Source: Tetraselmis striata
Lineage: Eukaryota; Chlorophyta; Chlorodendrophyceae; Chlorodendrales; Chlorodendraceae
Direction of reading: 5' to 3'
Assembly (NCBI GenBank): GCA_006384855.1
Contig: VCJN01001734.1
Coordinates: 1-64,000 of the forward strand
Length of the DNA: 64,000 nt
Shown in pieces: positions 4,141 to 64,000 of this stretch; the first letter of the stretch is position 1, and every line of letters begins with the position of its first letter. Below the pieces are notes generated by a model. That model searched no databases. It was not told the DNA's origin and saw nothing but the letters and a program-made list of their open reading frames with translations. The position numbers were made by a program, and so were the translations under genes.

Positions 4141-5488
4141 TCATGAGCGAACGGAGAGAGCGGTGGATTGACGGAGAAGGAGTAGCGCCAGGTCATGAAG
4201 TAGGCACCGGGAAGGCCACCGCTGCGGAGTCCTGTTGGACGTAGAAGTGGCGGAGTGGGGCGGTGTGGCCAAAGAAGAACTATGCGCCATGTGAAGGAAG
4301 AACGTTGGGGTCGATGTAGTCCAAAACGACGTCGGAGTTAGTGGCCCAGCCGGCTTGGTAGCGAATGTGGGACAATGGTACTCCGATGGCGTTGGCTGTA
4401 GACGCGGCTCCCTTGCGAAGGCTGTGTATGTGAGGTCCAGGAAGTGCCGGCGGGAGGGGCAGCACCGACAAGACGGACGGCTGTAGACAACCAGTCCGAC
4501 ATTGTAGCGGCGGTCCAAGGTTTTGAGTGCTCGCTCGGGGTGACCCCCCAGAAGTTTGTTTCAGCCAAGGCAGCAGTAACCAAGGGGGCAGACTGTACGT
4601 TGTCGATGAAGTGGTGCAAGAGACGTGCAATTCGGGGGTGGGAGCAGACACAATCAGCTCGGCCTTTGTGACGAAGCGGTAAGCTACATCAGCAGGCAGA
4701 GGAATTCGCAAAGGGGCGGCTTCCAGACGGCGCTGCCGCAGCATCAGCCCACGCCTTGCCGAAGTGAGGTGAAGGCTGTCCTTGGCGATTGGGTCGAGGT
4801 TGTGCATCTCGAAGAACGTGTTGATCGCAGACAGGTAGGGTTGCAATGACTTAGCTCCAATGTGCCCTCGCTCACCAATCCATGCGACGTCCCGGACGAC
4901 AGTAGCAGTGGTCGCCTCCAGCGGGCTGATGTTCTCGGAGTCGTGGCAGAACTCCGCGAAGTGAGACAGTCTGCCGGCGCAGCTCTTGAGTGTCTGGGCG
5001 GTGAGGGAGCTGGAGAGCAGATCGAGTGTCCGTTGTCCTAGCTCTTCTGAGCCGAAAGCATCATGCATTCGAGATCGCAGTGAAGCAGCCTAGGGAGCAA
5101 CAACCTCGGGCTCGTCAATTACGTAAGTGCGTCGTTTTACCGACAGAGTTCCAGAGGTGCGACTACTGTTTGCAAAGTACTCGGCAACAACCGTTAGGTT
5201 CCCGGCGGTTGGCCGGTAGATGATGGACGGGTTTGCAGTAGTACCAGTACGGGTTGCGGGCAAGGTTAAGGTAGGAGGGCCGCCCCGCGCGCCCTTCGCG
5301 CTCGTAGCGCCTGTCGCGCGCGTAACGTACGCGCGCGAAGCTTGGTCGTTGCGAACCAGTTGTGACACGCAGTGTAACAACCGACGGACGCAGTGATGGA
5401 ATGGTACGGGAGGCGGTTGGTTGAGCCGCCATGTCCAGGTGGCGGATGGTTGAGCCGCACTCGGCTGTATCTGTAAGAAGCGCCGCAC
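4141..5488 (-). pseudogene. Tyrosine recombinase, copy A (broken)
   Basis: Related to the recombinase of copy C (62162-63739) over its whole length. The core-binding region is clear (for example TLDLLSSSLTAQTLKS and AWIGERGHIGAKSLQPYL). The C-terminus keeps the catalytic HSLRK (H-x-x-R) and the tyrosine in LDYIDP. Two lesions are seen relative to copy C: a TAG at 5090-5092 where C has Trp, and an internal deletion that removes the part of the catalytic domain carrying the first Arg and the Lys, leaving the next block in another frame. It is therefore inactive. The family would carry out strand exchange during integration. Confidence 0.8.
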
Positions 5489-26298: not shown

Positions 26299-28231
26299 CT
26301 AGGGGTTCCTCCACTCCCTGTTAAGCCTGAGCAGCAGCATTTTCTCAATCTTGTGCAGGGGCTCTGTGGCTCGCAGACCCGACATCCGGAATCCCACATG
26401 CGCAAAGAGGCTGCTTGCTTGGACGCTGGCTGGGTCAATGCTGTGATACTGTGCAGCAAGGAGAGGAAGAACAACCATCGAAGGATGCCCTGGGTTTCCG
26501 GAGTCGCTTCCGATGGAAGTAGCCTTGCTCTGCCCACCATCCCAAAGAGTTGTGAGTGTCGCCATCCAGGGACTGCAGCTGTTGATAGTAGTCCACCTCG
26601 CCTGTGTCTGATGCCATGGGTACAGGTGTGCGACATGAATCGCCGGAAGGGCGCAGGATCTTGTGCTGCTTGTACTTGCTCAACCACTTCCTCTTTGTGC
26701 CATCCTCCTCCGGGCCATCCTCCGATGCACTGGGCAGATAAGCTGAGCTCAGGTGCAGAGCGCTGGCTGCCCCCTGATATAGCTCTTTCAGCTCTGCCCA
26801 TGCTGTCTCGAAGTCCACATCTGTGCATTGATTGATGTCATGCTTATGGCATGGGTTCAGAAGAGTGGCCAGCCGCTCTTCCTTGCTGCGCATTCGGCCG
26901 GGGCTGACAGTCTGAAGGTGTTTTGAAATGATGTCACGCATGCGCTGCACGGACTGCTGCAGCTCACCGGCGGGTTTCTCCAGCCGATGGAGTTCAGGGT
27001 CAACCGTGAGGTCCGGAACGTAGACTGTATCCTCGCCAAGATATTGCTCCAGCTCCTGCACCAGGGAGGCGCACGCAGCCAGCGGGGCTACTTGCGCCGT
27101 CCGCATCCCGTTGTCGACTTCGGCGCATGCCTCCAGCACTCCCATGGCATCTTGGAGCGTCGACCAGTCGGTCTCCCCAAGTTGCTGCCTGCTGGGGAGG
27201 ACCTCGGAGTAGAACTGCTCCATACGGGGCTTTGCAGCCAGCACACGGCGGTACAGCGCGAGAACATTGGTCAGGCTCTGAGTCTGCGTAGTCTCTAGAA
27301 TTGTCGATGCCAGTGACCTTTGCAGAGACTTGTGCAGCTCATCGTTGCCAACGGGCTCCATCAGAGGCGCCAAGATCTTCAGTATCCTGGCTGTGAAGGA
27401 TGCCACACTTGCTCCCTCAGCGCCGGCCATGCCAGCGCGCACAGCCTTCTCCAGGGAACTAATGCTGCACATCAGGTGTGGGACCCCAAGGTTCATCACC
27501 GCCTCTCTCAAGTGGCTACCATTGCCTACTGTGCAGACAAGGAATGCCATGGATGGCAAGATGTTTTTCCCGAATAACTCCGCTGTCGCACCAACCACCC
27601 AAGATTCGATGCTGCTGGAGTTGTAGTCGCGCGGCAAGGCTTTCACAGACAGGCCCAACCGCCTCCACTGGAAGTCGGGATTGACGAAGGTCACCGACAT
27701 TACTGCGTAGACCTGATCGCTGCCTTCGACTGAACAGGTGTCAACCTGCATTGAACAGCAGGGTCCAAAGTGGATGAACGTCCTCTGGCGCTGCAAGGTC
27801 GACTGCATGGATGCCACCAGGTTGGCGTGCTCTCTGTCAAGTGCTTCATCGAAAGTCTGCGCAGTTATGTTCCAGCTGCCAGTGGAGCTGTGCGGCAGAC
27901 TGCCTACCAGCAACCTGCACCCGGACTCGCTCACTGTCCGCCAGGGGTGAAGATCGTACGCACAGAAAAGAACAAACTTGCGGTTGATAGCTTCGGTACT
28001 AAGACCCGGGCCGTGCATCCCGGAAATGCCCAGCTCCTGGAACATCATCTGGTCACCGCTCTCAGCTGCTTCCGCGATGGCGCGCTTCGCTCTGTGCAGA
28101 CCCGAGTGTTTACTCGCGTCCAGGCAATTCTTGGCCTCCTCAGGGTGCTTGACCTTGAGATGCTTCAGCAAGTTGGTTGTTGATGAGCCTGTACAACGAT
28201 GGCACGGCCAGTCAGGACCGAGTCGCTACAG
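26299..28231 (-). pseudogene. hAT-family transposase, one frameshift
   Basis: A BED-type zinc finger starts the recognisable protein: CHRC followed by NLLKHLKVKH (C-x2-C, H-x4-H) at about 28205-28150. It is followed by a long uninterrupted frame to 26435. Typical hAT landmarks are PWRTVSESGCRLLVGSL, the central RNase-H-like region, and DWSTLQDAMGVLEACAEVDN. The dimerisation end is reached only by a frame change near 26490, after which HPSMVVLPLLAAQYHSIDP and HKIEKMLLLRLNREW complete the family pattern. An in-frame TAG at 28229 coincides with a good 3' splice site (pyrimidines then tgtag), so an upstream exon is likely. hAT enzymes cut and paste their element. Terminal repeats were not found. 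The single frameshift could also be an assembly error. Confidence 0.8.
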
Positions 28232-36208: not shown

Positions 36209-38061
36209 TCAGCCGCCCATATGCATGCTCCGTGTCAATGGTGCCACTGCCTCTAGCCACGCACTTAACGTCTCGCATAGGCATATGACATAGGGCATGT
36301 ATTCATATGACACCAGCCTAGACACAATGCGTATGAGGGCAGAGGGGGAGAGCGCACGGTACGCTCCATCTAGAGCTCTGAACGAGTCGCGGGCAGTGCT
36401 GCCCCTGTCCGCCTCATGGGCTATGCCTCGGCAGACCAGATTGTGCAGGTTCAGCTTCATCATCTCACCAGGCGAATGCACGCCGCACATCTGCACATAT
36501 GTCAGCATGCACTTGCAGTCCTTCCCCCGCTGCTTCTTGATGGACTCGTTGACACGCGCTGGCACTCCTCACTGTCAGCAATAAGAGCGTCACACTCATC
36601 CTCGCAGTCCCTCAGGCACTGGATGACCGCCGCTCCTTGCAGGATATGCCCCATGACTGCTAGGTGTTGATGCTCTGCGCTGTCAAACATAACCCTGCAG
36701 GAATCGCCACCGACGCACGCTACGTACTCAGTAAACAACACACCGTCCCCTAATAGAGCGGAGCTAGGCGTTTTTAGTCCTAGCAATAGTGGAGCGGGCC
36801 CCTCACCCAAGGACTAGCACTGCCACAGTCTCCGCGAAGTGCAGGAAGTCCTCGCGTGTCCGGTTGGCACACACCACACCGCTTGTGCCGGTTGACGGCA
36901 GCATTGACCGGACTGGTTTACCGAAGTCAATGGTAAGGGCAAACATCGCCATCTGTCTGTCCATCTTCGTCATCTCGGGCCGCCTATCCTGTGAAGGCAC
37001 ACACATATCAGCAACGCCCCTTGCGGCGGGAACCACGGGCGGGCAGCAACCGCGGTGTAAAAGATCACTAACCTTCAGGGTGCCGACATACTCCCAAAAG
37101 TCCTTGACTACCCCCAACATTAGTGCATGTGCTATCGGCAGCGGCCGGAAGTCAGCATAGCTTATATGCGGCAGCCAGCGCACAAATGGAGACATGCATG
37201 AAGTGCCGGCTATCGTCTGCACGATGCGCCCTGCGCCGGCCTCCACTGTCAGGAACCGCATACCCGCGCTGGACAACTACAGGTGCTGGGCACCCCCGCC
37301 GTAGGCAATGCTAGGTTCACAGTCATCGTCGGCAGTCTTTTCCTGCGCTGCGTCTTTCACCACCATGTGCACGCCGTATGTATGGCCGTCACTTCAAGGG
37401 GCGTCTAGACGGCAGACTCCGAAGCAGTACTTGCTTGCACCCGAAGCCACCCATGTATGATCGGCATCATCCAGAGTAGTAATACGATATCTGCATGCAA
37501 ACACATCACGCATTCAGTCACACCTTTTTACTTGTCCCCGCCCTCAGTACTCTGTAGCAAATAGTGGGAGCAGCCGTGCCACGATGCAATCCACCACGCT
37601 TCATAGCCTTGAAGCGTCCAGGCATGTTAGCAAAGAAGGCGCCAATGTATATAATTATGTAGCTCATGATCCCACATTGTGCATGTCAGTGTTATGTGCC
37701 AGTAACAACCAATCGCAGGCCAGCATGCCCACTTCCGGTTGACAGTGGGTGCACACCTCATGCTGCAACTCATGGCGCGCTCTGGACTTCTTACCATCGC
37801 TGTCAGTCACCTCATACACATCATGAACAGTCAGTGCGCCCTCCGCACTCTGCGTTCTATATGCTGGCAATTGCCTTGAGTGTCCCCTCCACCTATATGT
37901 CAATGTGCTTTGGTGCAATGGGGCCTGAGATGATGATCAGCACCTTCACGTTGCGCTTCTCCCCCCAATTTGATGATGGCATGTCTTGACACCTGCAATA
38001 GTAGGCCACGCCGCGCAGCACGTCAAAGCACCCAACTATAATTGTATTCATATATCTCGCA
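36209..38061 (-). pseudogene. CACTA/tnp2-like transposase, C-terminal part
   Basis: Exon blocks on the minus strand follow the order of tnp2 (EnSpm/CACTA) proteins: KRNVKVLIIISGPIAPKHID (matching the family's IIPGP-P-ID block), ALTVHDVYEV, HELQHEVCTHCQ, then DFRPLPIAHALMLGVVKDFW (matching the algal LPIAHALL-GVVK block). Two introns are clear: 37078-36992 (CTGAAG|GTTAGT to CACAG|GATAGG) and about 36798-36690 (TTGG|GTGAGG to TGCAG|GGTTAT). The gene carries an in-frame TGA and a TAG upstream of 37276, and a frameshift near 36545. Its N-terminal half is at 50205-51690, on the other side of the 12-kb element. CACTA transposases excise and insert their element; this one is broken. Confidence 0.65.
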
Positions 38062-38092
38062 GAACAGTAATGCAACCTATTTTGCCCCGAGG
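38062..38092. repeat. Left terminal inverted repeat
   Basis: About 30 bp, imperfect. It pairs with 50175-50204 and is preceded by GCA. Confidence 0.75.
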
Positions 38093-38169
38093 CACGCGGT
38101 GCATTGTGGTTAGGTCTAAATTAGGGTTTGGGGGCAGCAGTGGGATTGAAAGCTAATATGAATGCCGGT

Positions 38170-38385
38170 TGGTTCATTTTGTGCCAAGTCGGGGAAACCA
38201 ATTCCGTCCAAGCAGGGACAAATCAAAAGAGGGAAGGAAACGGGATGGTTACAAGAAGTTTGCGCCATCGGGGGCTGAAACTCTGTCCAAACTGGGACAA
38301 AAAAAGTGCGGGGGCCGTGATGGCTACAAGTAGTTTGTGCCGTCCGGGGCTGAAACTCTGTCAAAGCCGGGACAAAACATATGAG
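38170..38385. repeat. Subterminal tandem repeat with GGGACAAA
   Basis: About 2.7 copies of a 76-bp unit containing gatgg(c/t)tacaag, ggggctgaaactctgtc and gggacaaaa. The gggacaaa word also marks the other end of the element. Confidence 0.7.
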
Positions 38386-38407
38386 CGGCTAATTTTGCGG
38401 AATTGTA

Positions 38408-41400
38408 CTACATATCATCATCTTCGATCACATAATCCCCTCGGCGCTCTGCCGCCTCTTGCCTCCTCTTCTCCGCCGCAAGACGCTCTGCGAACTCCTC
38501 TGACACGGTCATTGGATGGGGTAGACCCGGCCACTTCTCGAAGTCATTTGGACGCAGTCTTTGAGTCTCGTCCCATGGCTTCTCTTTGAACCATGAGGTC
38601 ATCCTGGACTTCATCCCAGCGATTTGCGTCTTCTGGTTGTGAATGGGGATCGTCTTCAAGTTCCTGTGTGTGAACGAGTAGCTATGATCCATATGGTCCC
38701 ACCACACGGAAAAGGCCGCAGCGACCTGGAAAAGGCGTGGCAAACCGCACAAGGCGTTAATTGTTTTATGTTGATCCCATTAAGACACTCACCCGGGTTG
38801 CACCCCTCACGCACCGCGGTTGTCCCGGTTCCGGCTGTGACGTCGACGATTGTTGTACCGTCTGCTGCCGCCATCTTAAGGTGCTTGGCGAAGAGAGCGA
38901 TAGGCTTTTGGTACTTGTTCACCGTCTGTCTGTTCTCGTCCTTCAATTTCGAACTGTCTTTGAAGTGACCCAACATGATGGATGTAGAGAATCTGGAAAG
39001 GCACAACCGGCTTAGCGAGTAGAATATACAAGCCGGCTATTTTCCACGGATCAAATCTCACCTTCGGGGATCATCGAAACGGATGTTGTCAGCTATGATG
39101 CTTGGCGGGGGCTTCCTGACGTAGAGGTAGTACTCAGCGTCGTGACGCAGAGAGCTGCCCATCTTCATCCCGCAATCCTTAGCCCAAGTCAAGACGTGAT
39201 AGATGAGGTCCTCAGCTTGTTTTTGAACGGCTGTGATTGCGGATCCAAGTTGCTGGTCCGAGAGGTGAATGAAGAAATGGCACCCATCGAGAGCAGTGTG
39301 GACGTCAGAAGATCCAGTCAGGATATTCAACTGCCTGCGCGGGGGAAAAATCGGGAATGAGATAAATGAAAGCACAGTCATCTACGCACCGGGGTTGTGG
39401 GGGTTGTCTTGCCTGGCGAAAGCAAACACGTCGTTGAAGTCGTCCGTACCCCACGCAGCATCCTTCGAGTCCCATGTGCGCGAACCAGCTCCGAAAAGCG
39501 CGTCGGCAATGAAGACTGTTGCCTTTCTGGCACGAACTGCCGACATGGCGTCCGCGACGAATTGTTTTGTCGCGGGAGCCTTGAAGTTCCCCTCCACAAT
39601 GCAAGTCTTGCAAAGCTCCGTGTTCAACCACACCTTGTCATCCTTGTCGACCCCTTCTCCCTTGGGCATCACCGGAAGTTCCTCGGCTTGTGCGTATTAG
39701 AAAACAGATTCGGGTTAATAGCTCACAACGAAAATTCAGAAGAGCATTTGTGGTTGCACAAGATCTTAGTTACCTTCATCGATATACACAGCTCATTAGA
39801 AACATTCGGAGCGGAAACCGCGATAAGCTCCGGCGCACATGCCAGAAGAGCAAACTATGTGAAGAAGGAGATGACCAAGTCCGGCATCTTATTCTTGATG
39901 CGATACGCCTCACTCCTGATGGTGGTGTTGGTGGCCGCGATATGCTCTCGAACCGGTAGTGGTGTGAGACAATCGGCGGATTTCATGTCCCCCCCATCTG
40001 GCAGGAGGGGTCAGCAAGACCATCAACGGACCGGAGCGATGAGCACCTTTGAACAAATCCTGGAACTTTCTGGGGAAGCCTGTTGGGCCGAGGTCATCAA
40101 CCTTGGCTCGGAACTTGGTGATGGCGTCAAGGCGAGCGGCCGCTTGCTCATCCGACACATTGTCATCCACATCCATTTCGATGATGTGGTCCGAGAGATA
40201 TTTCCCCCAGTTCCTGGCCGGTTCGTCCGGCGTCAGCAGTTGGAGTTCCTGTCCGTGTCCCTTTGCCGTGCCAATAGCATTCATGAGCTTGATGCTTGCT
40301 CGACGCAAGAGATCGCGAAACCTCCAGGTCTCAATCATCGCGAGCCACTCCGCGTTGGTGTGCGTAACAACCATGGGGCCATTGTCGCCGGCATGCTTAA
40401 TGTCATCCACCAGCTCGTAGAGGAAAGGGGTCACACTGTGCTCGCCTTGGATGAGCAGTCCAACCACCAGGTACATCTGGCCCACAGGGAGATCCGCGCT
40501 GTCGCTCTGCTTGGCAAGAGACGGCTCGTCTAGCCAGGGCGCATGGGGTCCAAAGCCGACATCCTGGGTCGAAAAACAAACTTCAGTACGGAGAAAGGAA
40601 TCAATGATAGTATTCCATATGATTAAGACACTGGGGTCGGTCACAACTTACCTCCATGAGGGCGACTCGGAAGTGAGCTCTGTCTTTCCCGAAGCCGTAC
40701 TTCTTGTTATCGAGGAATGTATTGATAGGCTTCCGAATTGCTTCGTAAACCTTCCTCACTTCCTTCTGGGTGAGTTGCCTGCCGGAATTGAGACGCTCGA
40801 CTCTATCGAGTTCTTGCTGGTAGTGCACAAATAGGTCTCCGAGTTTGGTTCTGGCTTCGTCCCATCCTCGAACCCCGAGGTCCACATGCCGGTAGGCTTC
40901 AGAAATCTGCTCAAGGGGCTCAAAAACACTGCGCAAATCATTTGTCAGAATCTAGCAGCATTAACAACACGATAAATTTTCATCGTGTACGCAGCTCACC
41001 GTTATGGGCGCGAGCAGAGGTCAATCAAATTTGAGAACTCGCTGCTCTTCTCATCTTTGATGCCGATCTTCTCAAGTTCAACTTGAAGAACTTCAGACTT
41101 CTTGAACTCCTTCACTACCCTGATTTGCGGAAGTGCCCTAAAGCCGGGGCGATTTGCATCCTGTTCTGCATACCAGCTCTCGAAACATCTGCGAAGGTTC
41201 TGCAGAAACAATTGCACCGATTTCAAAATTCCGAACGATTGTACCTCGATGACAAACCGTTTCGTCCCGCTGATGACAGAACGTTTCGTCCCACTAATGA
41301 CATAACGTTTCGTCCCACTGATGACAAACCGTTTCGTCCCACTGATGACAGACCGTTTCGTCCCGCTGATGACAAACGGTTTCGTCCCACTGATGACAAA

Positions 41401-44400
41401 CCGTTTCGTCCCACTGATGACAAACCGTTTCGTCCCACTGATGACAAACTGTTTCGCCCCACTGATGACAGACCGTTTCGTCCCACTGTCACATATTTTT
41501 AAACCGCTAACGACAGAACGACTTTTGTCACACTTTACGCCTATTTGCTGCCACGGTCAGCTAAATAGTAATTTGGGAGAATGGGCCACCCACCAGGAGT
41601 TTGTGCATCGACGTGTCTCCCACGACGGTGTGACCCGCCTCGTTGAGCTTCATAGACATGTAGCGGCAGACTTCCGGCGAGAGGCAGATGTACATCTTAG
41701 CCGACGTGAGGTGGATGCCTTTGTTGGCTTTGTAGATTTCCGGGTAGTTTTCTTTCACCATGCGCTTCGTCTCCCGTCTGTGGCTGCCGTCGATGTTGGC
41801 TTGAAGCGCGCCGTAGGCGCAAAGAAACTCGATGATGACGTCGATCTCTGGCTTGTAGGAACTTGAATCCGCCAACCTCGGGTTCTCCCCGCCTTGGAAT
41901 GCTGCGACTAGCTCCTTGAAGTTGGCCATGGTCAGAGCGAGGGGCTCGTACTCTTCGGAGAAACAATCGCGGTTCTTGTGGACTACTGGAAAGGACACCG
42001 AGAAATTCTCGGCGGACAGGGAAGGATTCCTCTGAATAACAAATGCAAGAAATGGATGTCAGTAAGTTGCATTGTGTATTGATTTATATGTAACTACACA
42101 TATCTGATCCGGATAGGTACAACAGGTCGCGATAGGCTTTTACCTTGTAGCTTTGCGCCACCATATTGCAGTCTTGCAGCTTTGGGGAACGGAATTCAAA
42201 TTCCGGCGGCGGAGCGACGAACTTATCGGATATGAAGCTGAAAATGTGAGGCAGCCCCGTATCCTTGTCGACGACGAGGTTGACTCTGTCGGCGTATAAC
42301 GTGTTGATGTCGCCACTGTGAGATGTCTTCACCTCTGGATCAACAATCTCGACTCTGAGGTGGCCGTAAGAGATCCAGTCGACGGCACCGGTGTTGTGGA
42401 AGCCATTCAAGGCCGGCGGGACGGCCAACGTGTTGACGTATGGAAGCGCGTACTTAAAATCCTTGTCAATGTTGGCCAAGTCATCGATGTCAATCTCACC
42501 AGACGCGAAACCTGTCAGCGCCTGCGCCGGCACATTGCGCTCGACCAAAGTCCATGCGTAGTAAGACTGGAACCGCGGTTGGAAACAGAGTTGCGGTTGG
42601 ATCGCGTGGAGTAGCAACCTCTCAAAGCTGACATTGATCCTGAACTCCTTGGGCATTGTCAAGCGATAAGGTTCAAGACAGATCTGCGGTAACAAGCATA
42701 AGAATATTAATACTTATTGAAACACGACATTGACACGAATTCAGACATCATAGAAGCTTTACTCACCCCGTAGTTTCCGGCCGAGTCCAGCTCGACGTCC
42801 TTGATCTTTCCGATACACGAGAGAAGTGGCCCCTTCGGATCATAGAAAAAGTCCTTGCCAGTCAGCAAGCTCGCCTTGTGCAATTCGATGTACAAATAGA
42901 TTTGTACCTCAGCACTTGTGTTCTTGAACCAGTGGATAGTCCAGCTCCTTGAGGTAAAGTCGCTGTAGGAGTCATGTTCTTGGGACCCGTCCCTCTCGTC
43001 AAAGAAGTCGTCGTAAGAGGCGACCGTCATCAGCTTTGTCTTCCTCTCGGGTCCAGGAGTGCCGGTGATGTCGAGAGCTTGCTTACGCTTCTCTGCCGCC
43101 CGTTACCTCTGTTCTTCCTATGTGCCGAAGACCTCTTCATCCGTGCACATACTGAGGAATTCAAGAACCCTTCTCGGAGCCTCGGCAATAGGGGCTCGAG
43201 AACCAGAGGCTCCAGAACAGGACGCTTGCCCGGTAGTCGGCGCTGGAGTCTCGAGCTCGGCCTCTGGCTCCAGGTTAAGCCGAGTGGGCTCGGGCTCCGG
43301 CTCCGGCTCCGGCTCGGGCTCCATCTGAGTGGGCTCAGTTTCAGGCTCATGCCGAGGCTCTGGCTCGGGCTCATTGGGCTCTGTTTCAGGCTCCGGCTCG
43401 GGCTCCGGCTCCGGCTCAGTGTGCTCTATTTCAGGCTCAGGCTTTGTTTCCGGTACTTGAGATGGGCCTTTAGACAAAGAAGAGCCTTGATTCGGGGAAC
43501 CTGTAAAGAATGAGTAGAGAGTACTCAACACACCTGCAGTGGGCGTCACGATTAACTACTGAACGGTATCGCCATACACCATCAAAGCCAAGCGTATTTT
43601 TTCTTACCTGGGGATCCCGATTTACCAGCTGCTTCCGACGCGGTTGCCTGCGCCAATTTACGACATGTTGGAACGTCAGATAACTCATTGACGAGAAAGT
43701 AATCGAAGGGAGTGAGAAGGCAGGGATTGATACTTTCAGTCACAATTACCTGGAGTCACAATCGTCTCTGAAACCTTTTCTTTCCCCTTGGATTCGTTTG
43801 AAGCTTTAGTCGCTACTGGCTCATGTGCGCGTCCTTTCGAACCTGTCAACACACATGATTTCAAACAATGTCAATATGACACAGTGCACTCACAAAAATC
43901 ATATGATTTGAGAGGCAAGGACCTGATTGATAGTAAGCTTGCATGAGCTTTTCGTAATCGATTAGCCTTCGCGCTGTCTGCATTTGAGTATCTGAGAGGA
44001 CCTGGCCGCTCTTGATTCGGGCCGTCAAAAGAGCGGCGGCCGATCTTTCTCCTTGCGAGTGCGTGCCGTAAACCGGCACCCTACCTCCTAAAAGGCTCGG
44101 TTTCCAGGGGTTACATGATGCCTCAGCGCCCGCTCTAGCTGCATAAGCTGAGGCTGCACGGCTCTTCTTCGCCGCCGGCTGCTCGGGCACAGAAGATGAC
44201 GCCTTGTGTTTTCTCCCGACTAGCGCTCCGAGCGCATCGAATTCTTTTGCTTTCTCGGTAGGTTTTGATGTCCGCTTGGACCTTCGACCTATAAATATCA
44301 TATCCTGTCAGACCGTTTCGTCCCATTGATGACAAACCGTTTCGTCCCACTGATGACAAACCGTTTCGTCCCACTGATGACAAACCGTTTCGTCCCACTG

Positions 44401-45397
44401 GTGACAAACCGTTACGTCCCACTGATGACAAACCGTTTTGTCCCACTGATGACAAACCGTTTCGTCCCACTGATGAAAGAACGTTTCGTCCCGCTGATGA
44501 CATAACGTTTCGTCCCACTGATGACATATCGTTTCGTCCCACTGATGACATGCCGTTTCGTCCCACTGATGACAGAACGTTTCGTCCCACTGATGACAAA
44601 CCGTTTCGTCCCGCTGATGACAAACCGTTTCGTCCCACTGATGACAAACCGTTTCGTCCCACTGATGACAGATCGTTTCGTCCCACTGATGACAAACCGT
44701 TTCGTCCCACTGATGACAAACCGTTTCGTCCCGCTGATGACAAACCGTTTCGTCCCGCTGATGACAAACCGTTTCGTCCCACTGATGACAAACCGTTTCG
44801 TCCCACTGATGACAAACCGTTTCGTCCCACTGATGACAAACCTATTTTCAATACATTATGTACTGCGGTTTAATAATGTAATGTCTTTAAGTACTGCGCT
44901 TCACACTAATATTAAACCACTCCTTACGGCGGAGTACAGGCAGAGGTTCCCCCTGGCCGCTCTTCACCCCCACCCCCTCCCACCACCAATTAGCATCCTT
45001 ACTGCTTGCCGCAGCTGCCTCGACGGGACGTAATACTAACCTCCAGGACCCTGATGCCGCTCGTCTCGTTTGGGTTTCTATTCCCACTCGTCTGCCTACA
45101 CCTCGAGCGGTCCTAGATTACACCGCTTCTACAGGGAACCCTAACCGAACTCGCTAGATCTGGCCGTATCACGCGTCGAGCAGGCAGGCGGCTACTGTAC
45201 GCTCCCACTCGTCTGCCTACACCTCGAGTGGTCCTAGATTACACCGCTTCTACAGGGAACCCTAACCGAACTCGCTAGATCTGGCCGTATCACGCGTCGA
45301 GCAGGCAGGCAGCTACTGTACGCGCGCGCAACTCACCTGGGGTGGCGTCGTCCTTGTCTTCCTTGTCCTTGGCAGGCTCGTTCTTCTTCGGCGCCAT
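38408..45397 (-). CDS. Large spliced protein with degenerate DNA-methylase end
   Basis: Fifteen exons fit good splice sites: 45397-45337, 44288-43923, 43843-43750, 43628-43608, 43500-42767, 42683-42144, 42031-41594, 41199-41000, 40928-40652, 40563-40047, 39997-39774, 39681-39390, 39330-39062, 38992-38815, 38725-38408. About 1,500 codons. It begins [17 protein letters not shown], then a basic stretch ([18 protein letters not shown]) and a Glu-Pro repeat (EPEPEPEPE). The middle is unrecognised. Near the end, [15 protein letters not shown] followed by [12 protein letters not shown] matches the motif IV region of N4/N6 DNA methylases, but DPPF has become [16 protein letters not shown] and [17 protein letters not shown] match their C-terminal SAM-binding motif. 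Four in-frame TAG/TAA codons (43118, 43103, 41002, 39855), all where Gln would fit, and frame conflicts in exons 3 and 12/13 suggest decay or sequence error. Methylation activity is doubtful without the catalytic prolines. Confidence 0.65.
41248..41491. repeat. 24-bp repeat array 1 (about 10 units)
   Basis: Units of CGTCCCACTGATGACAAACC plus GTTT, with A/G variation after CCC and a/g/t variation in aca(a/g)a. It lies wholly in the intron between exons 7 and 8 of the minus-strand gene. Confidence 0.95.
44307..44842. repeat. 24-bp repeat array 2 (about 22 units)
   Basis: Same unit and same orientation on the plus strand as array 1. Wholly in intron 1 of the minus-strand gene. Frames such as repeated PFRPTDDK are translations of the array, not proteins. 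Confidence 0.95.
45082..45323. repeat. 121-bp perfect-phase tandem duplication
   Basis: 45082-45202 is repeated at 45203-45323. The two copies differ visibly only at gagCGg/gagTGg and ggCGgc/ggCAgc, both CpG transitions. Located in intron 1 of the minus-strand gene. Confidence 0.9.
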
Positions 45398-45937
45398 TCT
45401 GGCGGTAGGTAGGTTGACGCGGTAGATGAGCGGGTTTCTTGGTGGGAAGCGGTGAGGGAGAGGTGGAAATGACGTGGTTTCTGTAAGCCGCCGCTATGAC
45501 CCCTGCTGGACCAACGGCGCGCGTGCGCACACTATAGTGTACCTCGTCGTCGTCATCAGGTTCATGTATTTTGCACCGCGACGAATATACAAGGCTAACT
45601 ACTGCGACTTTATATTACTATTACTGGAAGATAAAATATTCCCTACTCGAGAGTCAGAACGGTACGAGAGTACAGTGGCGTGGCAATAATATTCCTTCAT
45701 GGGATGACATATTCCTTGGATTGGATTCGGGTGTACTTACTAGTATAGAACTATTACCGACATACGAAAGAAACACGAAATAATTCGGTATTTGAGTCAT
45801 CAATTATTTTGACCCGTAGCTGGATATTATGCACCCCGGTCAACGGCCCGTCCGAGAACGGTCATCGGCCGTCACTCTTCCTCACCACAGATCACAGTCC
45901 TTCACCCCCCCCCCCCCCCCCACTCGCCCCGCGCTGC
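45398..45937. promoter_or_regulatory. Shared divergent promoter region
   Basis: The 540 bp between the two start codons (ATG at 45397 on minus, 45938 on plus) must hold both promoters. It is AT-richer than the genes. Poly(C) at 45905-45921 lies just before the plus-strand start. No defined promoter element is recognised. Confidence 0.45.
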
Positions 45938-48900
45938 ATGGCGGCGGTCGAAAGCATGGCCTCTTCTCCAGGATCCGGCGCGTCGGACACTACAGTTACA
46001 TTACCGCTGTGTTCGTGCCGCAGCGGGTACTCGTGTGATTGCGACGCGCGTGCGAGTGATCGTAAGGAGCCTGAGAAAAGGAAGTACACGTGGGGCAAGG
46101 GCTCCGATGAGGTCGCCGAAAGCGATAATGGCAAGGTCTCGTCTCTGATCAGCAAGCGCACCTCTCGCGATTGTATCCGCCTCATGCTCGCCAAGGAGGC
46201 TAGCGAGCAGTCGCCATGCTGTTCGCGCAAGTGCGTGCACAAGCTATACACACAGTGCGGAGAGGCCCTCGTTGATGCAGTGTTGGACCGTGCGTTGACC
46301 GTATACTATGGCAATCAGAACCGCTCCTTTGACCGGCTCGCTCAGGTTCTCAGGGGTGGGTACGAGTCAGCATCCGACAAGTTCGATTACATGTTTGATC
46401 ACGGTGGCTACTTACGCTCTTTCGACCATCGGGGCCCCATCTACACGTGTGGGCGTGCGTGGGAGGCCTTGCATAAGGTCTCGAAACACAGACGTCTCGT
46501 GATCCAGCGGTCGGTGGTGGATAACGAACCCACGTACATCAGGCAGCGCAAGCAATACGAGAGCAGACAAACCGGACCGAGGGAGCATGTGCGCATGTTT
46601 CTCGAGCACTTCTTCTCGGATGACCTCGGTCACGTCGAGATCATGCCTTTTCATGACGGAAACAGCGAGACCTTCAAGAAGCACCTACCTCCCTGGATGA
46701 TCAAGATTTGCGTCTACTACTACTACAAGTCGTGGGCCGAGGACGACAACGCCATTCTCCGTGGTGAGGCCCATTTTGTCCCACTAATGACATACCGTTT
46801 TGTCCCGCTGACGACAGACCGTTTCGTCCCGCTGATGACAAACCGTTTCGTCCCACTGAGGACAAACCGTTTTGTCCCGCTGATGACATACCGTTTTGTC
46901 CCGCTCATGACAGACCGTTTTGTCCCGCTAATTACATACCGTTTTTGTCCCGCTGATGACAAACCGTTTCGTCCCACTGATGACAAACCGGTTCGTCCCG
47001 CTGATGACAAACCGTTTCGTCCCACTGATGACAAACCGTTTTGTCCCGCTGATGACATACCGTTTTGTCCCGCTGATGACAAACCGTTTCGTCCCACTGA
47101 TGACAAACCGTTTTGTCCCGCTAATTACAGACCGTTTTGTCCCACTGATGACAAACCGTTTCGTCCCACTGATAACAAACCGTTTCGTCCCACTGATGAC
47201 AGACCGTTTCGTCCCAATGATGACACACCGTTTCGTCCCTCCTTACAAACCGTTTCATCCCGCTATCGCCAGAACGTTTAGTCCCACCGACGCCGGACCG
47301 ATTTCGTCCCACTGATGACAGAACGTTTCGCACCGCTCATGGCATACCGTTTCGTCCCACCGACCACAAAAGTATTTGTCCCACATAATTAGCCGATATC
47401 GTCCCACTGCAGAGAGAACGTCTTGTCCCACTGCTGAGAGACGGTTTTGTCCCACTACTGACATACCGTTTCGTCACACTGATGACATATTGTTTCGCCA
47501 TGCTGATTACATAATTATTCACCCACTACCGATATAATCATTTCGACCACTTTAGACCGAACTTTTCTGTCTCGCATTATGAGACCTTATTTGTATACCG
47601 ACCTATCATGCCCATGCCCCTTTGTAGATTTGGCTACCGAGAGCGAAGTGAAGCTCGCATCGTTCGACACTTTCCGCCGGACTTGGAAGGAAGACTTCCC
47701 GGATGTCACCACGCCGAAGGTGAAGCGATTCAACCACTGTCCCATATGCGCGGCGGGCAAACCACTCAGAGACCAAGCTCGCGAGATTTGCACAAAGGAC
47801 ATGACGCCAGAGGAACGTCAAGTGCACCGTCAACATCAGCAGCTGGTGAGGCGTCATGTCAGAGCTGAGCAAAAGGTACACCTCGAGAGAGTGCGCAAGG
47901 AACGAAGGGATCTGAACAACGCCGTCTTCCAGTCGCGCCTTGGCCATGGAAACTTCTTCTTCTTCGAAATTGATAGCATGGACTCCGCAAAGACCCTGCT
48001 GCCTCACTGGGTTCGCATCCCCAAGACTGTGAAGCCCGACATGCTCCTCAAGTACCACCTCACCTGTGTGAAGTACGACGGATACCGCCCGGACGACATC
48101 TACTACTACAGCAACACCATCCCCCACGATTCGTCCACGACGTGCACTCTGATATGGATCACGATCATGAAGGTGAGCTCGTTAGCCTCCCGATAGGTTC
48201 GCCGCGGTTGTCCGGTAGCCATGGACTGATGAAATATTGTCTGCGATGCAGGAAATTCAACACCGTGGTAGAAAGATTCCGTACATCTGAATCCAGATGG
48301 ACAACACCGTCAGGGAGAACAAGAATAGGAACGTGGCGGCCCTCTGCAATTGGCTTGTGTCTATCGGCATCTGCGACGTCATTCATTTGGTCTTCTTGCC
48401 TGTCGGGCACACTCACGAACGGGTTGACCAGATCTTCAGCCGCGTCAGTCTTGCGCTATCTCGCTCTCTCGCTAGCTCCGCCTACACAATCGAGGCCTTT
48501 CTTGACTTGGTGGCGAAGGCATTCTCGCCCACTCCGGAGATTGCTGAGCTCTCATTCTCCCTCGACTTCTCTGAGTGGTTAAGGCCCCATTTCCAAGACC
48601 ACATTCAGGACATCAGTAAGCCGCACAAATTCGAGTTCACCCGTGACGACGCCGCCGCGTCTGGCGGCTCGTTGCGCACCGCCTTGTGGTCCAACACACC
48701 GCTTTCTGAGCCCGTGCAGATCTTGAAGAGCGCGCCAACTGGGACGCCCGAGATTCGTGCGGGCCGGCCCCTTTTGTACGCTCTCTGCGACAAAAAGAAG
48801 CCCGACGCGGTGAAGGTCCAGAGGTACTTGGATGATTTCAAGAAGGTCAGGTCGTACATCACGGACCTGGCGGTACAGTGGCACTTCTTCCCAGTCGAGC

Positions 48901-49911
48901 GCGAGAGCTGGAAGAATCTGCTCGACGACTTGGATGAGATGCAAACTGCTCCTTCGGCAGCTTTCTCCGGGTTCTGGCCGCAACGGAAAGAGGACGTTGA
49001 CGACTTCTTGCGCGAGCACGGGCAAACCGCGCATGCTGAGGCACGTCACACGATGGCTACCAATGCAGACCTCAACAATGCCGAAGCCGCTCGCGTTGAA
49101 GCCGAGGTTCGTGCTCAAGTGCTTCAAGATGACAGCGCCTTCCGGGGAGTTCACGCCGGCGCCAAGGAGAGGCTTCATGACAACACATCGCCCAGCGATG
49201 CAAAGGGCTCGAACCTCGCTCGTTGTCATCGACGTCTCCGATGTGAGTCCCATTGTTTGTCATTTTTGTCCTTTACGGGACAAAACAATTTGGTTCATCT
49301 ACCTTGCTTGTTAATTTGTCCCAACTGGGACAAAAATGGCGTGGCCTCTCGCTCGGGACTAACATAGCTCGCGGTCTTGGTCATCGTTAGGTGCATGAGG
49401 AAGACAAGTGTCCTGAAACTCTTGGTGATTGGGAGTCGAGATTCGTCATCGGGCTTGTGAAGTCGCGCGGGACTACCGAAGACACGTTGACGTGGCCGTA
49501 TACGAGCCCTTCCATGCCGATGCAAAGGGCAAACCCCTCATGCCCCTATGGTTGTACGCGCAGACAAAAGGAGGGAAGAAGCCAGTTGACACAAGCTGGG
49601 AGAAGTGCCTGACGCTTCCTTGGAAGCTTGTTGAAGCCGTCCCCCTATCGTACGCGAAGGCCATCCACGACGCGTCGGGAAGTCGAGAGGTGTTCAACGA
49701 GGACGGCACCATGGTCAGAAAGAAGTGGTACGGTAAAAGCGTCCAAGTCGTGAAGACATATGCGCAAACTGGGTGGCAAATCAGCCAGCCACGAAACAAC
49801 TGCGTCCACGTCATGTCAACCACCCCAGCGCAACGCAAACCCGGCGGAGTCGTCAAGTTTAACGCAGCCACGAAGAAGGACTTGCTTGAGTTGGGGATGC
49901 TCAACGAATAA
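45938..49911 (+). CDS. DUF7869-like transposon protein
   Basis: Exons 45938-46763, 47628-48172, 48252-49242 and 49391-49911. Exon 1 has a Cys-rich start (CSCRSGYSCDCD) and the block CSRKCVHKLYTQCGEALVDA. Exon 2 carries FNHCPICAAGKPLRDQA, a charged helical stretch, FFFEIDSMDSAKTLLPHWVR and DDIYYYSNTIPHDSS. Exon 3 has QMDNTVRENKNRNVAALCNW and FLPVGHTHERVDQIFSRVSL. The D-N-ENKN and GHTHE-VD-FS pair is the hallmark of DUF7869-type transposon proteins, probably an RNase-H-like fold. The C-terminal exon (FVIGLVKS, then PLMPLWLYAQTKGGKKPVDT) is unrecognised. An in-frame TGA lies at 48288-48290, and frame changes near 49100-49200 and 49480 are needed. It may be the element's transposase. Intron 1 holds array 3. 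Confidence 0.65.
46770..47500. repeat. 24-bp repeat array 3 (about 30 units, degenerate end)
   Basis: Same unit as arrays 1 and 2, with many TTTTGTCCCGCTGATGACA variants. It decays after about 47250. Wholly in intron 1 of the plus-strand gene. Confidence 0.9.
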
Positions 49912-50010
49912 ACTATCAGCAACGTCTTGTGGCTAGCTAGCCGCTGGATGTAATAATCATAATAAATATTGATTTCATTGCCTCATCTTGTCCCATTTTG
50001 GACAAAATGC
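49255..50010. repeat. GGGACAAA palindromes near the right end
   Basis: tttgtcccaactgggacaaa at about 49314-49334 is a near-perfect palindrome. Related words are tttgtcctttacgggacaaa at about 49264 and cttgtcccattttggacaaa at about 49986. They match the left subterminal repeat and resemble the 24-bp unit (cgtcccactgatgacaaa). The first two lie in the last intron of the plus gene, the third beyond its stop. Confidence 0.7.
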
Positions 50011-50174
50011 TCCAAAACCAACATTGGATATGCGTCGCGGCTGGCCTTCATGCTGTTGAATGCTGCACTGCACCCAAGGTCTACAAACCCAAGCTACATC
50101 ACCAGTGAGTCTTAAGTACTGATACTTGACCCGGGAACTAGGGTATAAACAAACCCTACGGTGCAAAATGAATT

Positions 50175-50204
50175 CCACGGTGCAAAATAGGTTAAATTAC
50201 TATT
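50175..50204. repeat. Right terminal inverted repeat
   Basis: Inverted partner of 38062-38092, followed by GCA at 50205-50207. A second, weaker copy of acggtgcaaaat lies just inside at about 50158. Confidence 0.75.
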
Positions 50205-51690
50205 GCATGATATAGCAACACTGGGGTACGAACCTAATGGCAAATATCCAGCAATGAAGAATATGTTTTGCTCTAGTGCATCTCCACCCCATCTCCACAT
50301 GAATCATACAACCCATGGTCTTTGTGAAAGAACTGCCCGTTGGCGAAAGCATCCATGGCCTTGCATGCTTCAGAGTTCCAAAACCCATTGATGTATTGGT
50401 CTATGCATGTGCCTCTACGCAGAGCCCATTTCTCATCCAAAAGAATTGCTTGACCAACTGCAACGTGTTTCGTGCCACAGCAACAATAATAGCTCAATTA
50501 CGCTATGCGCTGCTAACGATGCTGACGAGGGGGGGCAAACGGAAAGGGGGGGGGGGGGGGGCGCATCACCTCACAAACGTTGCAGTCGTAGAAAAGTTTG
50601 CGCGGTTGAGGCGTGGCGGGGCGCCGGTGGCGCATTGACTCGGGTGTCCAGCGTGTCAATTTGCAGCGAGGGCAGCGTTCATCGTAGGTCATGTCACCAT
50701 CTAGGGAGTGGTCGTACCGATGCTCGTCGCACGGGCAGCAGTGAACGATGTCATTCTTGATGTCCGGGACGTTCAGGCATTGCTCCACATGGTACCACGT
50801 CTCGGTAAGCTCCGACCCGTCCTTCGGTAGAATGTGTTTCTTCAGCAGCTTCGACAGCCTCGATCTCAAACGCAGCCGCCGTCTTGATGTTATGCTTCAG
50901 CTCCCACTCGCAGAGATTGAGTGCGGCCTCCATCAGGGTGGCGTCGGCACCGGTGTACAATTGACGGCGTCTATTGCGAAGAGGGTCGAGAAGCATGTGT
51001 TAGCAACGGACTAGTAGGCACCACACAAGGGGGGAGGGGGAGTCGACACGATACATGCTCACCTCTTCCCGTCGTCGTACTTCCCTCGAGCGCTGCTGGT
51101 CCCGGTATTGAAGTCATACCTCGCGCCATCGCTGAAGTCTCCTTCACCGTCTATGTCGTTGCGGTTGTTGTTAGAGGGGTTGCCTTCCACAACCCCCGCG
51201 ACAATGCCTTCGGCGACGCTATCGGCGTCGCTGTCGGCGTCGAGAAGTTCGCGTAGCTCATGTCAGGTGCACATGCGCACAAGCATCTAAAGGAACGCGC
51301 GTGTAATAATGAAGCACATCAAATCATCGTTTGCACGGTGCCAGTGCGATACTCTCACCCCATGCAGCAACTACATCGCGCTTGGCCGCGCGCGATAGGA
51401 ACCGGAGCTGCGTATCAGTAGGAGCGGACAACTTGGCGACGAGTGCGAGCAGAACTGTTAAGGTAGGATGAGTACGGGTTGCACGCGCGGGCGTGCAAGC
51501 GCGCCGCGTACAGACAAGTGAAGTACGGCACGTTTTACGCGACGCGACGGTAACCATGCACTTATTGTACTGACGGTGTACATTACGAGTGGTGGACACG
51601 TGGCGCCGCACGACGACGGCACTGCATGGCCGCTTCCGTCACCAACGGCGGTCGTCTTGACATCTTGCCGGAGCAGCGGCACCGGAAACG
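50205..51690 (-). pseudogene. CACTA/tnp2-like transposase, N-terminal part
   Basis: Minus-strand exons in the order expected before the part at 36209-38061. Near 51600 lies a finger-like RRHVSTTRNVHRQY. Further exons have DFNTGTSSARGKYDDGKR up to donor 51062 (GAAGAG|GTGAGC), then from 50970 RQLYTGADATLMEAALNLCE and ELKHNIKT. After a frame change comes LTETWYHVEQCLNVPD with Cys pairs (CCPCDEH, ERCPRCKLTRW). HKDHGLYDSCGDGVEMH ends at a TAG (50273-50275), beyond which SKTYSSLLDIC continues the frame to the 12-kb insertion. A 16-nt poly(G) at 50546-50561 lies inside. Decayed. Confidence 0.6.
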
Positions 51691-62161: not shown

Positions 62162-63739
62162 TCATGAGCGAACGGAGAGAGCGGTGGATTGACGGAGAAG
62201 AGGTAGCGCCAAGTCATGAAGGAGGCACTGGGAAGGCCACCGCTGCGGAGTCCTGTTGGACTTATCTTGGAAGTGGGGTAGGGGGGCGATGTGTCCAAAG
62301 AAGAACCATGCGCCAAGTGAAGGAAGAACATTGGGGTCGATGTAGTCCAGAACGACGTCAGAGTTAGTGGCCCAACCGCCTTGGTAGCGAATGTGGGACA
62401 ATGGCACACCGATGGCGTTCGCTGCAGAGGCTGCGCCTTTGCGAAGACTGTGCGAGGTCCAGGAGGTGCCAGCAGGGGGGGCAGTGTTGACCAGACGGAT
62501 GGCTGTGGACAGCTAGTCTGACATTGTAGCCGCAGTCCAAGGTTTTGACTGCTGATCCGAACTGACAGCCCAGAAGATCGTCATAGCCAAGCCAACAGCA
62601 ACCAGGGGAACTGACTGGACGTGATCGAGGAAGTGGTGCAGGAGACGGGCCACTCGGGGGTGCTCTGACACTGGGAGGAGAAGTACACGTAGGTCGTCGG
62701 GTCCCCGTCGACCAGCGCGACCCTTCTCTCGGTACACTTCCAGGGTGATGTTGTAGTCGTCGACATGCACGTCTCGCACTCGACAGGACACGCCAGTAAG
62801 GCCCCTGGCAAAGAACAGGAAGTTGACAACCGAGGCCAGGAGGGCTCGGAAGTTGTGGTGGTACTCTGGGTAGGGAGCAGACACAATCAGCTCGGCCTTT
62901 GTGACGAAGCGGTAAGCTACATCAGCAGGCAGAGGGACACGCAAAGGGGCAGCGTCCAGTCGGCGCTGACGCTGCATCAGCCCACGCCTTGCTGAAGTTA
63001 AGTGTAGGCTGTCCTTGGCGGTTGGGTCGAGGTTGTGCAACTCGAAGAACGTGTTGATTGCATACAGGTAAGGTTGCAGCGACTTAGCGGCGATGTGCCC
63101 CCGCTCGCCGATCCAGGCAACGTACCGAACGACAGTCGCAGTAGTCGCCTCCAGCGGGCTGATGTTCTCGGAGTCGTGGCAGAACTCCGCGAACTGAGAC
63201 AGCCGGCCGGCGTAGCTCTTGAGTGTCTGAGCGCTGAGGGAGCTGGAGAGTAGGTCGAGCGTCCGCTGGCCCAGCTCGTCTGAGCCGAACGCGTCCTGCA
63301 GCCGAGATCGCAATGAAGCAGCCCACGGAGCGACAGCTTCGGGCTCGTCAAGTACGTAAGTGCGTCGTTTTACTGACAGAGTTCCACCGGTACGACTACT
63401 GTTCGCAAAGTACTCGGCATCGACAGTTAGGTTCCCGGCGGTTGGCCGGTAGCTGCTGGACGGGTTTGCAGTAGCATCGGTACGGGTTTGCGGGGCTAGG
63501 TTCAGGTAAGAGGGCCACCTTGCGCGCCCTTCGCGCTCGTAGCGCCTATCTCGCGCGTAACGTACCCGCGCGAAACTTGGTCGTTGCGAACCAGTTGTAA
63601 CACGTAGTGCGACAACCGACGGACGCAGTGGTGGAATGGTACGGGAGGTGGTTGGTTGAGCCGCCATGTGCAGGTGTGCGGATGGTTGAGCCGCACTCGG
63701 CTGTAGATGTAAGAAGCGCCGCACCGAGGAAGGTCTCAA
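62162..63739 (-). pseudogene. Tyrosine recombinase, copy C (one stop)
   Basis: Reads as one frame from 63739 to the TGA at 62162-62164 except for a TAG at 62513-62515, where copy A has Trp. About 525 codons. The N-terminal third is Arg/Pro/Ser-rich. The core-binding domain runs from TLDLLSSSLSAQTLKSYAGR to about LRVPLPADVAYRFVTKAEL. The catalytic part has GVSCRVRDVHVDDYNITLEV (first Arg), YREKGR (Lys), HSLRKGAA (H-x-x-R), GGWATNSD and LDYIDP (Tyr nucleophile), so all residues of the recombinase pentad are present. It would catalyse integration through a 3'-phosphotyrosine link. Reading through or reversing a single G-to-A change would give a full product, so this family may have been active recently. 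Confidence 0.85.
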
Positions 63740-63752
63740 GGAAGTTTGTAAG

Positions 63753-64000
63753 GTGGGGGGGGGTCAGGCCCTAACACGGGGCGCTCATCTCGCCGTTGAG
63801 CTGCAAGGGTGCGTCTTGCGGCGGTCACCGAAAGGTGGCCTCGCAAAGCTCCAGCAGCTCCGACGAAAGGCGCCCCACACCGTCAATCGTGCTCACCTTC
63901 GCGGCCACGCCCGCGTCCACCGCCACGTCCTCGCCCACGCCCGCGACCGGCAGCTGCAGCCGCCACTCGAGCAGTAGCGGTCGCTTTCGCGCTGCTGGCA
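63753..64000 (-). pseudogene. Gag-like gene, copy C, C-terminal end
   Basis: Matches the end of the Gag-like gene of copy A (5570-5800), including the RG-rich tail coded by the cgcggcc/acgcccgcg repeats at 63900-63950. The gene continues past the window. Whether it is intact cannot be seen. Confidence 0.55.

Follow-up and report, generated by a model that had tools for sequence, protein, structure and literature searches.

The 64-kb window analysed here, positions 1 to 64,000 of contig VCJN01001734.1 from the chlorophyte Tetraselmis striata, harbors a genuine, degraded copy of a high-copy, two-gene DNA transposon. The element is built around two spliced genes that lie back to back, gene A for a large protein ending in an N6/N4-methylase fold and gene B for a protein with the domain DUF7869, and it contains three arrays of one 24-bp repeat and palindrome-like sites towards both ends. 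An earlier, sequence-only reading of the window had described these parts as one unit, and all of them were found. The features of the element are as follows (window coordinates):

38059..38062, no strand: left 4-bp target duplication, GCAG; the pair in the window differs at one position
38063..50204, no strand: whole transposon copy, 12,142 bp, degraded; defined by its arms, by copy comparison and by empty sites of sister copies
38063..38085, plus strand: left terminal inverted repeat (TIR), AACAGTAAT-NN-AACCTATTTTGC
38202..38378, no strand: three left-side GTCC..GGACA palindrome-like sites (38202, 38284 and 38359)
38408..45397, minus strand: gene A, 13 predicted exons; 1504 aa without internal stops in the open copy C154, stops in the window copy
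38408..39687, minus strand: exons 10-13 of gene A, N6/N4-methylase-like C-terminus (PF01555), with DALF at the position of motif IV
41260..41475, plus strand: 24-bp array 1, 9 units within 5 mismatches, in gene A intron 6
44316..44843, plus strand: 24-bp array 2, 22 units within 5 mismatches, in gene A intron 1
45938..49911, plus strand: gene B, 4 predicted exons; 956 aa without internal stops in C154, stops in the window copy
46774..47492, plus strand: 24-bp array 3, 22 units within 5 mismatches, in gene B intron 1
48291..48653, plus strand: DUF7869 part of gene B exon 3 (profile positions 63-179); the domain starts in exon 2
49263..50008, no strand: three right-side palindrome-like sites (49263 and 49315, both inside gene B intron 3, and 49988)
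50182..50204, minus strand: right TIR, one mismatch to the consensus
50205..50208, no strand: right 4-bp target duplication, GCAT, 3/4 bases equal to the left one

The matching inverted repeats claimed for the ends are present as 30-nt arms (38063-38092 and 50175-50204) with a complementarity of 83%. Within the window, the core AACCTATTTTGC occurs at the two arm sites only, even when one mismatch is allowed (chance mean 0.09). Further loci with the same ends are plentiful: the exact 12-mer core has 294 + 269 = 563 sites in the 224-Mb genome, compared with 4 + 6 = 10 for the reversed control, and the consensus of the element ends is AACAGTAAT-NN-AACCTATTTTGC. Ten whole copies were taken from pairs spaced 11-13 kb among the first 100 of the 563 end sites and are full-size by choice. 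Another 20 elements, represented by their end regions only, are the first 20 of 45 others in which the gene A and gene B matches are spaced 8.2-9.4 kb. Together with the window copy this gives 31 elements, and both ends could be placed in 29 of them (C1496 and C753 have one end outside the retrieved stretch).

A perfect 4-bp target duplication flanks 18 of these 29 elements; shuffled pairing of the flanks yields a mean of 0.76 and a maximum of 4 (2000 trials). The 18 duplications tend to read purine-pyrimidine-purine-pyrimidine. Two more elements, C1481 and the window copy with GCAG/GCAT, have duplications that differ by one base. A 3-bp duplication (GCA), as proposed from the window alone, was rejected, for it fits 0/29 elements, and lengths of 5 and 6 bp likewise fit 0/29. 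With a 4-bp duplication and flanks of GCAG/GCAT, the G at 38062 belongs to the flank, and the element therefore begins at 38063 and not, as first read, at 38062. For the empty-site test, the flanks of C30 or C154 were joined with one duplication removed and then matched to the genome. The 218 bases of the joined C30 flanks are matched at 100% and unchanged length in the best match (best 40 of 1877 candidates), and the 189 bases from C154 at 99% and unchanged length in all 40 scored (best 40 of 307 candidates). These full-length, gapless matches are empty sites and therefore fix the boundaries to the base. The repeat that hosts the C30 insertion is a related high-copy repeat that resembles the tyrosine-recombinase-like open reading frame at 4280-5089 of the window. 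Inverted ends, a target duplication of fixed length and empty sites, which characterize a cut-and-paste TIR DNA transposon, are all present.

The element family is abundant and has been recently active, and the copy numbers given here are lower bounds. A 253-aa piece of gene B had 703 candidates in the genome, of which the best 150 were scored; 16 of these tie at 553.6 bits, and 119 of the 150 have no internal stop. For a 263-aa piece of gene A, the best 145 of 445 candidates were scored. At least 76 of the 150 scored gene B matches have a scored gene A match on the opposite strand, on their head side and at a distance of 2-20 kb (median 8843 bp), compared with 2 in another geometry, and at least 78 of the 145 scored gene A matches are paired with a gene B match. 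The 74 scored gene B matches without a scored partner do not count as lacking gene A, given that only the best 145 of 445 gene A candidates were scored. All ten retrieved full-size copies carry both genes. A separate occurrence of the two genes at conserved positions, which would have spoken against one element, was not seen in this genome among the matches listed.

Three further pairs among the first 100 end sites are 7.3-7.5 kb apart (C48, C70 and C200). In the 7.4-kb C200, both ends are still in place; of gene A the C-terminal 91 residues remain, and of gene B residues 690-956 and short pieces from its early part. Its array-like sequence matches about 4349-4801 of L097, and its flanks, CTAG and ACAG, are unequal. 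C200 looks as expected of a non-autonomous, internally deleted derivative.

Gene B was described as DUF7869-like from its sequence, which is borne out by the profile PF25273 on the window exon (E 2.4e-33) and on the C154 protein (E 1.1e-43, 149.5 bits, gathering score 26). The splice sites of both genes are predicted, and several junctions are common to gene models of the Joint Genome Institute (JGI); a gene B homologue at 100% identity is found among the JGI Tetstr1 models. In the ten retrieved copies, C154 included, gene B covers 740-956 of 956 positions, several copies having stops. Five acidic residues, D385, D388, D468, E507 and D510 (P0002 numbering), are at least 90% conserved over 62 DUF7869 rows, and because of this conservation gene B is likely a DDE/D transposase. 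Its candidate catalytic triad would consist of D385 or D388, D468, and E507 or D510. The ratio of nonsynonymous to synonymous substitution rates (dN/dS) against C154 is 0.11-0.27 in seven of nine comparisons; the outliers, C226 with 0 and C140 with 0.98, both derive from few changes. A sequence search of the Protein Data Bank (PDB) with gene B gave one match at E 0.23. DUF7869 proteins of corals, bivalves, echinoderms, lancelets and a sponge have a conserved core in common with gene B and are mostly annotated as uncharacterised; no paper in the literature collection searched contains the word DUF7869. The JGI models P0003, P0006 and P0040 fuse DUF7869 to kinase, UCH or methylase domains and are probably annotation chimeras at insertion sites.

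Gene A covers 1408-1484 of 1505 positions in the same ten copies, again with stops in several. The N4/N6-methylase fold proposed for its C-terminus is recovered by PF01555 in C154 (E 1.7e-7, 31.8 bits, cut-off 26.7) and at 38812-39282 of the window (27.3 bits in a genome scan reading through stops). Homologues of up to 100% identity occur among the JGI Tetstr1 models; of five gene A models compared with PF01555, four score just under the cut-off (24.8-26.2 bits) and one has no match. An NCBIfam scan returned only weak CcrM matches (E 0.0012-0.002), and PDB sequence searches with the methylase part and with gene A gave 0 matches. A ParB match is absent from the five JGI models, which are partly incomplete (E up to 3), and from the C154 protein searched in two pieces (E up to 1). 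Motif I reads DVTAGTGTT. A proline-glutamate-rich repeat occupies residues about 174-230, and intron 1 contains a 121-bp tandem duplication (98%) at 45082-45323 of the window.

Both genes are constrained, gene A less than gene B and with fast-changing stretches. The dN/dS of gene A against C154 is 0.41-0.70 in eight of nine comparisons, the ninth (C140, 1.74) being uninformative for a near-identical copy. Pooled over eight copies, the corresponding ratio of nonsynonymous to synonymous polymorphism (pN/pS) is 0.41 in the methylase core (residues 1249-1399) and 0.42-0.61 in six stretches before residue 1149. Of nine gene A stretches, none has a lower pN than the core, whose pN/pS is about equal to the 0.42 of the N-terminal part. 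Decay of dead copies adds to the gene A ratio; gene B in those copies stays low.

The arrays of TTTCGTCCCACTGATGACAAACCG lie at three constant places in 11/11 copies, their assignment to introns being taken from the exon map of the window. The number of units varies from 5 to 36 per array and from 52 to 76 per full-size element (within 5 mismatches, 11 copies). No opposite-strand unit was found in the 11 copies, though genes A and B run in opposite directions. The palindrome-like sites towards both ends carry a half-site of the 24-bp unit (GTCCC). Because the units are one-stranded while the genes point oppositely, and because the half-site recurs in the palindromes, the arrays look like a target in the DNA itself and less like an RNA or protein feature.

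Through the divergent DUF7869 protein P0051, 31% identical to gene B, two more families were found in this genome. Gene B of the window element's family (family I) is about 30% identical to these families II and III, to which DUF7869 matches were assigned by eye from identity (29 entries each). Their methylase partners were sought by a genome scan with PF01555 and by a search with a family III methylase piece. Among the matches listed, family III has nine same-contig pairs, eight of them on the head side, on the opposite strand and within 25 kb (six at 10.0-12.2 kb); in the ninth, the genes lie 52 kb apart on the same strand (C1302, a doubtful member). Family II has two same-contig pairs among the matches listed, 11.5 and 16.5 kb apart and each in the head-side, opposite-strand arrangement. 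The remaining entries of both families have no methylase match on their own contig among the matches listed, and these contigs are often short. An absence of gene A from families II and III was considered and rejected: it had been read from no more than about 7 kb of sequence on the head side of gene B, whereas the distance to the methylase genes is some 10 kb or greater. Residues 1267-1401 of gene A and the family III methylase piece are 32% identical in alignment (E 6.6e-18).

Judged by these identities, the divergent DUF7869/methylase pairing is old, because its layout recurs in two distant families whose DUF7869 proteins are about 30% identical, with a methylase identity of 32% in one. Most likely the two genes travelled and diverged together. 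A single family III locus, C1345, includes sequence upstream of the gene. It lacks the family I unit; GTCC..GGAC arrays of its own (25/28 bp) lie ahead of the open frames of DUF7869 and in the gaps between them. Neither family I nor family III units were found in C1519 and C385, and a search for the inverted left end of family III gave no result. Strong PF01555 matches also occur outside the studied families (C1010:99804, C2009:26599, C1597 and C803; E down to 6.9e-32); their source may be contaminating bacteria, inserted viruses or the host's own genes. Sixteen more methylase matches (C1117:94719, C1590:286953, C2214:273243 and others) share about 29-51% identity with the family III piece, some of them in long open frames; only two of them share a contig with a listed family II/III DUF7869 match.

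Taken together, the locus is a two-gene cut-and-paste transposon in which gene A, maybe with gene B, probably acts on the arrays for anti-silencing or self-regulation. We infer catalysis by gene B, array binding and methylation by gene A, and the anti-silencing role. Gene B would insert the element by linking its AACAGTAAT... ends to target DNA cut with a 4-bp stagger. Gene A would be an accessory protein of long standing, encoded by the element and ending in an N6/N4-methylase domain. Alone or together with gene B, it would recognise the 24-bp GTCCC units in the three introns and the palindromes, and it would mark or open the chromatin of its own element, leading to escape from host silencing or to self-regulation. 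A broader proposal is put forward tentatively: a DUF7869 lineage of its own, in which transposase and divergent N-methylase co-diverged with family-specific GTCC/GGAC arrays. It might form a three-part self-marking system (writer, arrayed target and mover) that sets its own DNA modification, evolved independently of VANDAL/VANC and laid out alike.

Several observations weigh against this reading. The usual motif IV of N6/N4-methylases is (D/N/S)PP(Y/F/W), such as DPPY or SPPY. In gene A it is DALF in the family I rows covering it, and DSNY in the single family III copy read, and because of these changes the methylation activity may be lost. No DNA-binding domain was recognised in gene A by Pfam scans of the C154 protein and the five JGI models. 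Gene A changes faster than gene B, and its residues 1149-1248 and last 105 residues have a pN/pS of 1.09 and 1.22, respectively, which could reflect adaptation or weak constraint. Most of gene A is missing from the copy C200, and for C70 the matches listed include a scored one to gene B but none to gene A. Of 29 elements, 9 show no 4-bp duplication even with one mismatch allowed.

The altered motif IV in both families read is also what favors the main rival, in which gene A is a transposition partner whose methylase fold no longer methylates and which binds arrays and palindromes, pairs the ends or sets the transposase dose. TnpA of the maize Spm element has a somewhat comparable role. One half-site common to the arrays and the sites towards both ends would suit such a partner, as would the retention of both ends and an array match in C200. 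However, GxGTT of motif I and the Asp and aromatic residue of motif IV are kept, pN within gene A is lowest in the methylase core, and the arrays are kilobases away from the ends; a partner of this kind is somewhat doubtful. It is unlikely that gene A is a passenger without function for the element: the head-to-head pairing recurs in families that are about 30% identical, and its dN/dS is below 1 in eight of nine comparisons, even though it is less constrained than gene B, two stretches exceed a pN/pS of 1, and deletion derivatives do without most of it. A last alternative, that no transposon is involved and that segmental duplication links two families of host genes, has nothing in its favor beyond the high copy number. 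This explanation is extremely improbable, as it conflicts with the inverted ends, the 4-bp duplications and the deletion derivative with both ends, and the empty sites, which lie in two distinct repeated sequences, refute it. A viral origin was rejected as far as tested: profiles of genes A and B found no relative in viral contigs (few short patterns), and the DUF7869 piece found none in phages.

Among known systems, Sola elements share the target duplication of 4 bp. The likeness to this superfamily is one of duplication length. The 4-bp length is given for Sola2 (PMC3627910), and a Sola-1 transposon of Ectocarpus, Sola1-1_Ec32, is described with an N4/N6-methyltransferase gene on the opposite strand (2025; PMC12477816). 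The authors of the latter suggest that proteins of this type attach to the transposon that encodes them and modify it epigenetically. Like the Tetraselmis element, Sola1-1_Ec32 is a giant algal DNA transposon that combines a transposase with a large methyltransferase-domain protein on the opposite strand. Unlike gene A, its protein has 1104 aa and a ParB-like domain, and the element measures 21.5 kb compared with about 11-13 kb here (bivalve Sola1 elements have a mean of 5445 bp; PMC10294476). Intronic arrays are present in the Tetraselmis element, whereas the available text of PMC12477816 makes no mention of them for Sola1-1_Ec32. The sequence-only reading had called the gene pairing a new architecture; as a kind it has this precedent, and what holds is the DUF7869 transposase in that role. 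New, as far as searched, are this role of DUF7869, the conservation of the pairing across three families and the intronic arrays; a literature search by titles and abstract openings found no report of the element.

VANDAL elements are Mutator-like, and their anti-silencing protein VANC is not known to be a methylase. In Arabidopsis, VANC binds one-orientation motif arrays in non-coding regions, including introns, and array units are gained and lost between copies (PMC5735166; PMC10398659). The Tetraselmis element likewise pairs a transposase with an accessory gene and has one-orientation arrays of a short motif, also in introns and with a variable number of units. The likeness is one of layout, not of relationship; no sequence relation is claimed, and binding is only proposed here. 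The proline-glutamate-rich repeat of gene A can be set beside the tandem peptide motifs in the variable regions of VANC (PMC5735166). Element-encoded DNA methyltransferases are also carried by virus-integrated Mariner elements (PMC3627910) and, as cytosine methyltransferases, by retrotransposons (PMC5890265). Unlike the present case, these belong to other element classes, and the enzymes are of Methyltransf_26 or cytosine-C5 types.

DUF7869, a domain of unknown function in many invertebrate proteins, thereby gains a concrete putative role as a transposase. With its high copy number and its uninterrupted copies, this recently active system lends itself to testing a suggestion made for algal elements, namely that transposons direct N6-adenine/N4-cytosine methylases at their own DNA. 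Where each family has its own accessory protein next to its own array, as seen at one family III locus, the question arises whether each protein binds or marks its own array only.

Elsewhere, an Rfam scan of the 64-kb window gave 0 matches, and a 596-aa open frame at 26435-28225 on the minus strand has no significant Pfam match. Two tyrosine-recombinase-like open reading frames lie on the minus strand, one at 4280-5089 (E 0.006, below the cut-off) and one at 62513-63763 that matches PF02899 with an E of 3.1e-6.

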